NCBI RefSeq assembly: GCF_900104055.1
Contig: NZ_FNJQ01000033.1
Span: 1 to 34,695, forward strand
Reading direction: 5' to 3'
Source of the DNA: Pseudoselenomonas ruminantium
GTDB lineage: Bacteria; Bacillota; Negativicutes; Selenomonadales; Selenomonadaceae
Length of the DNA: 34,695 nt
In this document: positions 25,982 through 33,172 of the stretch, one piece after another
How positions within the stretch are numbered: the first letter of the stretch is position 1
Layout of the letters: each line of letters begins with the position of its first letter
The notes under the pieces: generated by a model
Databases searched by the model: none
Seen by the model: only the letters and a program-made list of their open reading frames with translations
What the model was told of the DNA's origin: nothing
Made by a program: the position numbers and the translations under genes

Positions 25982-26085
25982 ATCCCTCTCTTCAGTAATA
26001 ATATTTTCCACAGACAGCGGCAATTCCTGCATTGAAAAAGGAAAATTCCTCATTTATGCCGAATACTGATACTGAAGCGAGGGAT
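25982..26085. promoter_or_regulatory. Inverted leader repeat between the cyclase and the ATPase-like gene
   Basis: Arms at 25982-25997 and 26070-26085 match in inverse orientation at 15 of 16 positions (ACTGAAG-n-GAGGGAT). Each arm supplies a purine-rich ribosome-binding sequence pointing toward one of the divergent genes: 5 bases before ATG 26090 on the right, and about 9 bases before TTG 25973 on the left. A weak plus-strand promoter, TTGAAA-N17-TATGCC, lies at 26032-26060. Confidence 0.5.
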
Positions 26086-26089
26086 TATC

Positions 26090-27313
26090 ATGAAAAAACA
26101 TATGACAGATTTTTACTTATTCATGCTAGCACTTATCCTGGCTGGCGGCATTGGCTATTATTGGCACAGCCAGGGACTTGCTGACCTGCTGGTCATCAAT
26201 GCGGCAGCTGCTACGCTCATAGGGGCCTTACCCCTAGCCTACATGCTGGGGAAGATCCTGCCCTTCAGCCGTGGCGCCCGGCAGGCGAAGAAAAATGATA
26301 TCATCCTGCAAAGCAGCAGCCAACTGGCCGATATCGGCAATATCGATACGCTGATTATCGGCCGTCATGGCATCGTGACCGAAGGCCATCCCTATGTGGC
26401 CAGCCTCTATCCCGCAGGCGTCAGCCAGAACACCCTGCTGGCACTGGCAGCTTCTGCCGAGAAAGATGCCACTCATCCCTTGGGCAGGGCCATCTATGAA
26501 ACAGCCAGCCAACGGGGCGTACAGCTGCTCGAAGCCAGCACCTTCACCGAAATCCCCGGCTGTGGCGTGGAAGCCATTGTCGGACGCAATTCCCTGCGCG
26601 TAGGCAGCATTTTCTGGCTCAAAAAGGAAGGCATCGACATCAGCGCCGACCTCATAACCAAGAACGACCAGCTGGCCCAGCGCGGCCATAGCACGGTCTT
26701 TGTCGCCAATGGCAAATACTGCCGCGGCATCATCGCCATTGATGATGCGCTCGACAATGATACCCTGACCGCTATCCGCAAGCTTCAGCGCCAGCATATA
26801 CACACCGTGATGCTCACACGGGAAAACAAGCGCACAGCGGAAACGATTGGCAAGCAGGCCGGTCTGGATTCCGTACACGGCCAGCTGACACTCGAAGGTA
26901 AGCTGCGAGAGATACAACTCCTCAAAGCCCGCGGCACCGGTGTAGCCATCGTAGAGCGTGGCAATGTCCCCGATGAACTCATAAAGGCCGTGGACGCCGT
27001 TATCGAGCTTGCCCCGGCCAGACATCCGCTGGATAAGGAAGCCGGTCTGCCACCTGCCCCGCAGGAAAATCCCCAGGCCATCTTCCTGCAAAGCGGCCTC
27101 TTGTGGGATTTCGCCAGGCTGCAGGAAATCGGCAAAGCCACTCTGAGCCGGATCAAACTGAACAAGCTGATTGCCCTGATCGCATTTGCCGTGATCCTGC
27201 CCCTCTCCGCCGGCGCCCTCTATCCCTTCGGCATTCCGTTTCTCCCCGCATGGGGTGCACTGGCTGGGCAGGGGCTGGCCCTGTTGCTCGTCACCATAAA
27301 TTCCCTGCGTTAA
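26090..27313 (+). CDS. Degenerate P1B-type ATPase-like membrane protein (half length)
   Basis: The 407-residue protein aligns by eye with the second half of heavy-metal P-type ATPases, from membrane helix 6 to the C-terminus, but nearly every catalytic residue is replaced. The CPC ion-site region reads AAAA (38-41). The DKTGTLTEG phosphorylation loop reads GRHGIVTEG (91-99), so the phospho-Asp is Gly. MLTGDN reads MLTREN (241-246), and the GDGINDAP region reads ERGNVPDE (289-296). The nucleotide-domain His-Pro (129-130) and PGCGV (156-160) remain. Helices are predicted near 8-25, 33-57, 357-379 and 384-404. The actuator domain and helices 1-5 are missing. The frame is open with a good ribosome-binding site. 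Catalysis is not expected; the role is unknown. Confidence 0.8.
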   Translation: MKKHMTDFYLFMLALILAGGIGYYWHSQGLADLLVINAAAATLIGALPLAYMLGKILPFSRGARQAKKNDIILQSSSQLADIGNIDTLIIGRHGIVTEGHPYVASLYPAGVSQNTLLALAASAEKDATHPLGRAIYETASQRGVQLLEASTFTEIPGCGVEAIVGRNSLRVGSIFWLKKEGIDISADLITKNDQLAQRGHSTVFVANGKYCRGIIAIDDALDNDTLTAIRKLQRQHIHTVMLTRENKRTAETIGKQAGLDSVHGQLTLEGKLREIQLLKARGTGVAIVERGNVPDELIKAVDAVIELAPARHPLDKEAGLPPAPQENPQAIFLQSGLLWDFARLQEIGKATLSRIKLNKLIALIAFAVILPLSAGALYPFGIPFLPAWGALAGQGLALLLVTINSLR

Positions 27314-27340
27314 TAGCTCAATCAATAAAGTACGCAAAAA

Positions 27341-27420
27341 GCCCGGTGGCTGGTGATGTTTTTCCGCAGCTTTTGACAAGCTTGTCTATGGCGAAGGAAA
27401 AATATTACCAGCCACCGGGC
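27341..27420 (-). terminator. 80-bp palindromic terminator-like repeat, copy 1
   Basis: Perfect 14-bp outer arms (27341-27354 with 27407-27420), inner arms TTTTTCC/GGAAAAA, and the central palindrome GACAAGCTTGTC (27375-27386). On the minus strand it reads ...CCACCGGGCTTTTT, a terminator tail, 29 bases after the P-loop/Asp23 gene stop. It also separates that gene from the converging ATPase-like gene. A second copy is at 33045-33123. Confidence 0.8.
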
Positions 27421-27448
27421 GTCTTAACACCACGATGTAAAAAAGCAA

Positions 27449-28282
27449 CTATGCTTTCACATATAAAGTTTTCACCTGAATATTGACTTCATGCACAATC
27501 ATGCCCGTCATATACTCCACCGCATCCCGCACATCCTGCTGAGCCTGTCCCAGCAGGGTGGGAATATGGTTGCCATAGGTGAGCACCACACCACAGACGA
27601 TCTTCAGTCCTAGATCTTCATTACCGCGCATAAGATGCTTGACCTGCAGGCCATCCACCTTCGTGATGGCCTCGATTTTTTTCAGTACCACCTGCACGAT
27701 AGACTTGACGGCCGAATCATCGATGCTGAGCTTGCCATAATAACTGAAAACCGGCCGCACGATGGACTTCTCGCCCAGACGGCGCCGCTTGGTCGAAGAA
27801 CGCTTGAAAAGCGTCTGCAGCGGGTCCACCAGATAACCGGAAAAATGCGGCTTCAACTCAATCGTCGGCACCGGAATGATATGCTTGCCTTCCTTCAGGC
27901 GATGATACTGTGCCGCCTCCATTTCCTGTTTGGTCGCCACATCCTCAATGTGGATGATCTTGGCGATCTGCGGCAGGCGCAGGGCTTTGGCAATCTTGAA
28001 CACCATGTTCTCGGAAGTGCCCAAAATCAGAATACGGTGCGGTTTGGCCTCCTTAATAGCCGCTTGCACCTCTTCCGCATGGCCCGGCAGGACAAAGATT
28101 GCCCTGCGCACGGCCATGATCTTACTCGGTTCTTTCTTGGCAGAATGACCGCCCACTATCTTGCCGTCCTTAATCAGGATTCCGTCATCGATAATGGCGT
28201 CCGCCTTATGCTTATGCGCCACAATCAGCGCGTGGTGACTTTTGCCGGTGCCACTGGGCCCGACCAAAGCAATCACATCCAT
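27449..28282 (-). CDS. P-loop protein fused to an Asp23/Gls24 domain
   Basis: A 277-residue two-domain protein. Walker A GPSGTGKS is at 8-15 in a P-loop domain that continues to about 150 (ILILGTSENMVFKIAKALRL resembles a Walker B/Rossmann-like strand-helix). From about 165 to 275 the sequence matches Asp23/Gls24 (YloU-like) proteins, with VKHLMRGNEDLGLKIVCGVVLTYG and VRDAVEYMTGMIVHEVNIQV. Asp23 proteins are linked to envelope stress and membrane-associated scaffolds. The start is ATG 28282 with GGAG upstream. It follows the PHP phosphoesterase gene after 30 bases and ends at the palindromic terminator. Both domains are seen; the combined function is unknown. Confidence 0.75.
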   Translation of the reverse strand: MDVIALVGPSGTGKSHHALIVAHKHKADAIIDDGILIKDGKIVGGHSAKKEPSKIMAVRRAIFVLPGHAEEVQAAIKEAKPHRILILGTSENMVFKIAKALRLPQIAKIIHIEDVATKQEMEAAQYHRLKEGKHIIPVPTIELKPHFSGYLVDPLQTLFKRSSTKRRRLGEKSIVRPVFSYYGKLSIDDSAVKSIVQVVLKKIEAITKVDGLQVKHLMRGNEDLGLKIVCGVVLTYGNHIPTLLGQAQQDVRDAVEYMTGMIVHEVNIQVKTLYVKA

Positions 28283-33017: not shown

Positions 33018-33044
33018 TTACAGCTTACATCGTGGCACTAAGAC

Positions 33045-33123
33045 GCCCGGTGGCTGGGGATATCTTTCCTTCACTTAGACAAGCTTGTCAAACGTTACGG
33101 AAAGGTATCCCCAGCCGCCGGGC
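33045..33123 (+). terminator. 79-bp palindromic terminator-like repeat, copy 2
   Basis: Same design as 27341-27420: outer arms GCCCGGTGGCTGGGGATA with TATCCCCAGCCGCCGGGC (one mismatch), inner TTTCC/GGAAA and the centre GACAAGCTTGTC (33078-33089). On the plus strand it ends in GGGCTTTGTT, 27 bases after the zinc-ribbon gene. Copy 1 in inverse orientation matches it including the flanking AAGAC on the left and CTTT on the right. Confidence 0.8.
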
Positions 33124-33172
33124 TTTGTTCTATATCTTATTTTCTATTGCTATTCTACAACCAGATGATATG

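Follow-up and report, generated by a model that had tools for sequence, protein, structure and literature searches.

Why should a bacterium keep half of a heavy-metal P-type ATPase from which the residues for pumping are gone? The question is raised by a gene in the window, the whole 34,695-nucleotide stretch of Pseudoselenomonas ruminantium DNA that was analysed. It reads on the forward strand as a single open frame of 407 codons, with an ATG start and GAGGG just 5′ of it; the frame before it points away from it, its start lying at a distance of 116 nt. The earlier note had regarded the gene as maintained on account of its open frame and good ribosome-binding site. Both are present, and alone they are insufficient. 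The parts of the gene and its product are listed in Table 1.

Table 1. Features of the pseudo-pump gene, with positions in the window and residue numbers in the 407-aa product
Feature	Position	Strand	Basis
GAGGG, Shine-Dalgarno-like	26079-26083	+	read from sequence
Pseudo-P1B-ATPase CDS, 407 aa	26090-27313	+	frame, profile matches, homologues
First membrane helix, M3 / TM5 of CopA, residues 2-27	26093-26170	+	model and CopA alignment
Second membrane helix, M4 / TM6, residues 32-68, broken near Pro48	26183-26293	+	model
CPC copper-binding site, here LPL, residues 47-49	26228-26236	+	CopA alignment
DKTGT site, here GRHGI, residues 91-95; Gly91 replaces the phospho-Asp	26360-26374	+	alignment
N (nucleotide-binding) domain, residues 98-215	26381-26734	+	conservation; fold match to 2voy_J, 1.2 Å over 118 residues
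Putative pocket residues Glu124, His129 (AfCopA E457, H462)	26459-26476	+	alignment; ATP-binding role taken from CopA structures
Putative pocket residues Gly157, Gly159, Gly172 (AfCopA G490, G492, G501)	26558-26605	+	alignment; roles taken from CopA
TGD site of the P domain, here TRE, residues 243-245	26816-26824	+	alignment
P-domain Lys271, retained; kept in 74 of 90 copies	26900-26902	+	alignment
GDGxND site, here ERGNVP, residues 289-294	26954-26971	+	alignment
M5 (residues 339-374) and M6 (residues 387-406), the two C-terminal membrane helices; Tyr-Asn and Met..Ser ligands absent	27104-27307	+	alignment and model

By descent and fold the product is a P-type ATPase, with significant sequence and structural matches. 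Its closest known counterparts are the P1B-1 copper exporters of Archaeoglobus fulgidus and Legionella pneumophila: it matches LpCopA (3rfu) over residues 371-730 (E 4.4e-34) and A. fulgidus CopA across query residues 10-405, and the match to copper ATPase structures runs from TM5 (M3) to the last residue. Homology had been placed from helix 6 to the C-terminus; the C-terminal extent was right, and the start lies slightly earlier. The product shares with CopA the fold of the P and N domains, the His-Pro, the GxG and Gly501, and retains four membrane helices, whereas the A domain, the first four membrane helices and the metal-binding domains are missing. Against the NCBIfam model TIGR01525 it obtains E 2.3e-44 but only 152.2 bits, below the cut-off of 346.25 that is passed by the CopA-1 of the same genome and by two intact pumps of the CopA-2 lineage described below. 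The only Pfam match is to the HAD hydrolases (PF00702, 44.7 bits for a curated cut-off of 26.4, which it passes), with Gly91 standing where the nucleophilic Asp of HAD motif I should be. Annotations deserve some caution here: genes of this kind may carry the name of a heavy-metal ATPase or a HAD hydrolase, and the window gene lacks the pumping residues.

A working P1B pump has a phospho-Asp, an A domain with TGE, CPC together with the TM7 and TM8 ligands, TGDN and GDGxND, and none of these is found in the window protein. As first described, the phospho-Asp of DKTGT is a glycine, TGDN has become TREN and GDGxND is lost; in the CopA alignment the copper ligands Tyr-Asn of TM7 and Met..Ser of TM8 are gone as well. 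The reading of CPC as AAAA was a misalignment. The alignment with CopA puts ACPCA on ALPLA, so that CPC corresponds to LPL with its proline kept, and the four consecutive alanines, residues 38-41, come some two helix turns before it. What the protein does have of a P1B pump is an N domain with His129-Pro130 and a PGxGV motif at residues 156-160 (Gly157-Cys158-Gly159), whose survival had also been noticed correctly. To judge by these residues, the pseudo-pump cannot pump by the known mechanism.

The start of the frame lies where a split pump would leave its C-terminal half, which invites the idea that another gene completes it. However, the window genome has three A-domain genes (PF00122 hits), each within a full-length pump, no detached A domain was found there, and the phospho-Asp is missing anyway. 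We reject the split pump for this genome and find it barely credible at all. Three ordinary full-length relatives occur in the genome, with 26-30% identity to the pseudo-pump, and no intact copy lies next door.

The same truncated start and the same losses recur in the genus, and losses of the same kind recur in the family, which speaks against sequencing error. Within the genus, 20 of 22 genomes have a stand-alone match (40-100% identity); the other two (G005 and G016) are both incomplete, at 86 and 83%. GAGG at a similar spacing can be read in the sequence of 19 of the 20, G008 being the exception. The named relatives are Selenomonas species, mostly S. ruminantium (12 loci), and the highest identity of a relative is 90%. 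A profile of 14 stand-alone members detects a pseudo copy in 166 of 189 Selenomonadaceae genomes and 23 of 30 genera, a hand tally that combines 143 genomes from a first profile search with 23 of the 40 low-scoring genomes that were searched again. In six genomes from four genera an intact pump of this lineage stands in its place; 17 genomes, several of them incomplete, in three genera have neither. No short copy from outside the family appears among the matches listed for a sample of 300 class genomes (family members included, E 1e-55), where the out-of-family frames listed are all full-length pumps with at least 743 aa. In-frame stops are present in the pseudo copies of five draft genomes (G014, G062, G070, G072 and G169). 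The gene is dispensable in some lineages.

We measured selection by the method of Nei and Gojobori. Of 30 pairs, two had saturated dS, and the remaining 28 gave dN/dS between 0.034 and 0.231; the window gene compared with its two nearest relatives gave 0.077 and 0.081, and the N domain gave 0.03-0.10 in four pairs of the window's clade. Control genes from the same genomes span 0.025-0.21 overall, with cydA at 0.05-0.10 and cydB at 0.025-0.08 (five genomes) and cydC at about 0.20 (three genomes). The pseudo gene is thus under purifying selection, in the same range as cydA, cydB and cydC. A slowly decaying pseudogene might also show the rapid drift of the membrane and P domains and the stops in five drafts, but all 28 unsaturated pairs have dN/dS values like those of functional cyd genes, long frames persist across 23 genera, and conservation of the N domain comes close to that in intact pumps. 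Barring a systematic error in dS, the selection values and the breadth of conservation rule out decay, to which we attach very little probability. The open frame is a real gene that is not decaying, as the earlier note had proposed: dN/dS is not neutral, and catalytic residues are lost across one clade that selection maintains, as in a pseudoenzyme.

The family has a single origin. In an IQ-TREE phylogeny of 66 rows over the shared region, a further selection from which most fragments and near-duplicates were left out, all 54 pseudo rows fall into one clade with support 100/99. The sister group is formed by intact pumps of G204 and G036 (union 98/86), and the whole is nested among further intact pumps. 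We call this intact lineage, which is ancestral to the pseudo family, CopA-2; the pseudo family is monophyletic and descends from this copper pump. CopA-2 is represented by G204, G036, G030, G168 and G101, and by G102 on score and frame only. These pumps are full length with all motifs (that of G204 is cut by the contig end). Two of them, from G101 and G030, were run against the copper-ATPase model TIGR01511, and both pass. In G101 and G036 the intact pump occupies the same slot beside ispE as the pseudo gene does elsewhere, and in G101 it also lies beside cydABDC.

The losses are graded, and most copies have shed the A domain and the first four membrane helices as well. The motifs were scored in 91 pseudo rows, taken from 90 chosen genomes rather than from all 166; 69 rows have 370-490 aa, 16 are longer (532-756 aa) and six shorter. 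Fragmentary or broken copies (G014, G021, G062, G158, G169, G202), among them the short rows, leave gaps in some columns. In most of the 16 longer rows an N-terminal half survives in degenerate form, as in G026, with TGK for TGE, LLH for CPC and GKTGI for DKTGT. The phospho-Asp is kept in one of 89 readable copies, that of G203 (DRSGT), which lost CPC and GDGxND. The first Cys of CPC is kept in 12 of 89 copies and the second in four, and the Glu of TGE in two of the 13 copies that align there. The tree favours two truncations, one in genus g39 and one in the main group, as none of 200 bootstrap trees contains a single one; the AU test does not reject a single truncation (p 0.116), so the case for two independent events is only suggestive.

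The most striking feature of the family is where conservation has been kept. In 17 intact pumps (ten CopA-2 or outgroup rows and seven CopA-1 rows) no domain is less conserved than the N domain, whereas in the 91 pseudo rows none is more conserved: the order is inverted. The mean information per column in pseudo and intact rows is 2.53 and 2.68 bits for the N domain, 2.03 and 3.27 for the late P domain, 2.10 and 3.59 around DKTGT, 1.65 and 3.70 for TM5-6, and 1.79 and 3.56 for the last helices; with only 17 intact rows for 91 pseudo rows, the ranking of the domains inside each set should be compared and not the absolute bits. The N domain also contains 42 of the 66 columns with at least 70% conservation, and all six invariant columns of the 56 stand-alone rows. 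Meanwhile the membrane part diverges fast, and overall identity falls as low as 25%.

The conservation extends to the putative nucleotide pocket. We take E457, H462, G490, G492 and G501 of AfCopA, with numbers counted off on the A. fulgidus CopA sequence, to be the residues that hold the nucleotide. Their equivalents are kept in 84 of 90, 78 of 90, 74 of 89, 90 of 90 and 90 of 90 copies respectively, i.e., in 83-100%. Two other pocket residues are mostly lost, E461 being kept in nine of 90 copies and N502 in eight, and 14 of the 90 rows have no equivalent of E457 or of H462, four of these lacking both. With part of the pocket changed, it is not certain that every member binds nucleotide.

An AlphaFold2 model built from 56 rows, which replaced an earlier one from 14 rows (pLDDT 78), has pLDDT 89.8 and pTM 0.79. 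In the comparison with known structures this model best fits the P and N domains of CopA with AMPPCP or ADP (Z 28.9-29.2, 2.0 Å over 267-273 residues; for 3a1c/3a1e Z 29.2 and 2.0 Å, with 273 residues in 3a1c). The CopA ATP-binding domain 2b8e comes next (Z 27.2, 2.5 Å), and 7r0g matches with Z 25.1 and 3.0 Å over 389 residues. The closed fit is no proof of a bound state because nucleotide-free-style CopA entries such as 2b8e match well too.

The kept pocket and the inverted conservation favour one of the two functions that the earlier note had suggested, nucleotide sensing, as far as sequence can indicate it; the other, a chaperone-like role, is not supported. Several conserved positions make up a face of the N domain, namely Pro108, Gly110, Glu161, Arg170, Thr190, Asp193 and Gln194. 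These residues are common to the intact CopA-2 of G204, G036, G030 and G168 and mostly not to CopA-1. The face seems older than the loss of catalysis because the close intact CopA-2 pumps have it too, and the sharing may be simple shared ancestry.

These results suggest that the pump acquired a different use, perhaps that of sensing the energy state of the cell. Specifically, we propose at roughly even confidence that it may have been turned into a membrane-anchored nucleotide-binding regulator while pumping moved to CopA-1. CopA-1 would have taken over copper export, freeing CopA-2 from pumping, and CopA-2 would have kept a second job of its N domain (sub-functionalisation). The product would then consist of a four-helix membrane anchor and a P+N module that binds adenine nucleotide and closes like the E1-ATP state of CopA, and that could neither transfer phosphate nor run the pump cycle. 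Its nucleotide state (ATP, ADP or occupancy) would be signalled to a membrane partner through the conserved face of the N domain, the first candidates being CopA-1 and the cytochrome bd / CydDC machinery. Of the possible uses, signalling to a membrane partner that depends on nucleotide is probably the likeliest, with about an even chance, and a nucleotide-independent binding surface comes next.

If the N domain were kept purely as a surface for protein interaction, the same seven residues would form that surface and the pocket residues would merely stabilize the fold. Several of the most conserved columns do lie outside the classical pocket list, the equivalents of E461 and N502 are mostly lost, and that of His462 is lost in 12 of 90 rows. 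However, Glu457, His462, Gly490, Gly492 and Gly501 persist in 83-100% of copies while the phospho-Asp, CPC and GDGxND are gone, and the model best matches nucleotide-bound CopA domains. We consider such a surface unlikely, though worth serious attention.

The occurrence of CopA-1 fits its having taken over copper export from CopA-2. CopA-1 and CopA-2 were told apart by identity (50-100% as opposed to 47-49%) and by place, rather than by a tree of all copies. CopA-1 is present in all 12 near-complete pseudo-bearing genomes tested, although only as contig fragments in G032 and G195 and with one TGA in the matched stretch in G083, whereas none of the six family genomes with an intact CopA-2 shows a CopA-1 (one of them being 83% complete). 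One test set for CopA-1 comprised 14 genomes, ten with a single match in the family profile search and four others. CopA-1 was not seen in four pseudo-bearing drafts that are 69-85% complete (G117, G122, G164 and G186). In the window genome a CsoR-like gene, as read from its sequence, lies 5′ of CopA-1.

The same co-occurrence, 12 of 12 with CopA-1 for the pseudo copies and six of six without it for intact CopA-2, would also be expected if the pseudo-pump formed a hetero-complex with CopA-1 and tuned the active copper pump. Several observations speak against such a complex: two genera (G028/G094 and G031/G095/G096) have a full-length CopA without any pseudo copy, the two genes lie on different contigs in the window genome (C61 and C20), and no P1B pump is known to need a regulatory pseudo-pump subunit. 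We therefore regard this form of partnership as rather improbable.

The neighbourhood of the gene points to another candidate. For 69 pseudo loci the downstream neighbour could be read: cydA follows on the same strand in 22 of them, its first possible start lying 24-458 nt beyond the pseudo gene. Upstream, likewise read for 69 loci, the immediate neighbour is the divergent ispE cluster in 27. The pseudo-pump could then be the first gene of a pseudo-cydA-cydB-cydD-cydC operon and serve as an accessory or assembly factor of cytochrome bd. An intact CopA-2 in the same slot, within the csoR-copA-copZ locus (PF02583, PF00403) between ispE and cydABDC in G101 (L082 3209-7494), adds to this association; the ispE-like gene there is a GHMP kinase, and the names ispE, glmU and prs were read from sequence. 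However, the two genes are not co-dependent. By hand tally, the pseudo gene is present in 140 of the 156 genomes that have cydA and in 26 of the 33 that lack it; 20 of the 33 were named outright as lacking cydA and 13 were taken as those absent from the match table. The gene and cydA also lie apart in the window's clade, where the pseudo gene sits beside an Asp23-family gene and a PHP-domain gene with cydABDC elsewhere, and cydA persists without the pseudo gene in two genera. Because the pseudo gene's occurrence does not track that of cydA, the locus looks inherited rather than functionally required. Co-occurrence gives no support to an obligate partner of cytochrome bd, and an accessory role of this kind seems a distinctly remote prospect.

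Some observations on these loci can be added. Copper export and cytochrome bd genes share a common slot in several of them (L082, L044, L061, L068, L072 and others), often near ispE, a GntR-type regulator, glmU and prs; the pseudo-copA-cydABDC arrangement occurs in many lineages and csoR-copA-copZ beside cydABDC in one. In the two genera without a pseudo-pump (G028/G094 and G031/G095/G096), the sequence of G031 (L199) reads as a ferredoxin-like gene between ispE and cydA. In genus g6 (L084, L085, L096 and L103, i.e., G100, G097, G026 and G098), the place after the pseudo-pump is taken not by cydA but by the gene for a conserved protein that is apparently exported (217 aa in G097). The gene that adjoins the pseudo-pump in the window's clade, at window 27449-28282 on the reverse strand, encodes a 277-aa protein with a P-loop-like start, GPSGTGKS, as read from the sequence, and a C-terminal Asp23 domain (PF03780).

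DKTGT is regarded as the defining mark of P-type ATPases, and here is a dead branch kept by selection in 23 genera. Among the best-ranked titles of a literature search, with most subscription journals outside its scope, no title was found on a bacterial pseudo-P-type ATPase family, on the window gene in Selenomonas or on its place beside cydA. As given in the relevant part of one survey, DKTGT is present in 99.77% of 9,634 P-type ATPase sequences and no new class was seen; the 22 variants each have a single substitution, and the survey considers that they may be errors, or else pumps that do not function or are highly specialised (PMC3896382). The pseudo-pumps resemble those variants in being P-type ATPases without an intact DKTGT, and differ in forming a lineage-wide family, which the same part of the survey does not describe. 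The words 'inactive' and 'degenerate' are absent from the main text, as far as it was available, of a 2023 review of P-type ATPases (PMC10654040). A parallel is offered by apicomplexan guanylate cyclases fused to a P4-ATPase-like domain. For TgATPaseP-GC a regulatory role of the ATPase domain has been proposed, and in PfGC-beta the ATPase motifs are degenerate, while the GC-beta cyclase worked without the ATPase domain, according to the sections that deal with them (PMC6592433). The likeness is a P-type ATPase domain in a signalling protein, whereas those proteins are eukaryotic, of P4 type and fused to a cyclase, and are related to the pseudo-pump only at the superfamily level.

More tentatively than the regulator itself, we suggest that the family may represent a bacterial 'pseudopump' class: a P-type ATPase turned once, in Selenomonadaceae, into a membrane-anchored adenine-nucleotide sensor, with the pump parts shed stepwise, perhaps by two independent truncations to the same N+P+four-helix core, and with the N domain now the most conserved part. 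The pseudo family, the extant intact relatives of its ancestor and the graded intermediates together form a natural experiment on the role of the N domain apart from pumping. They make it testable whether the nucleotide-binding domain of a pump can become a stand-alone sensor.

Finally, we looked for other elements around the gene. Beyond the ribosome-binding site there is no upstream regulatory block common to the whole genus. By eye, a promoter-like stretch (TTGCAC or TTGACA, 17-18 nt, GATAAT) can be seen 5′ of the gene in seven cyd-linked or ispE-linked relatives, which are close to one another. A consensus promoter scan of the window gave two promoter-like sites for 1.4 expected, neither of them just 5′ of the gene on its strand. 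The window also contains a near-perfect palindrome of about 90 bp, at 27339-27427 and again at 33025-33126, with an RNA fold of –58.5 kcal/mol (z –9.5). It matches 16 further places in the genome with 73-93% identity, some of them partially and with opposite-strand self-matches left out, and looks like a REP- or MITE-like repeat.
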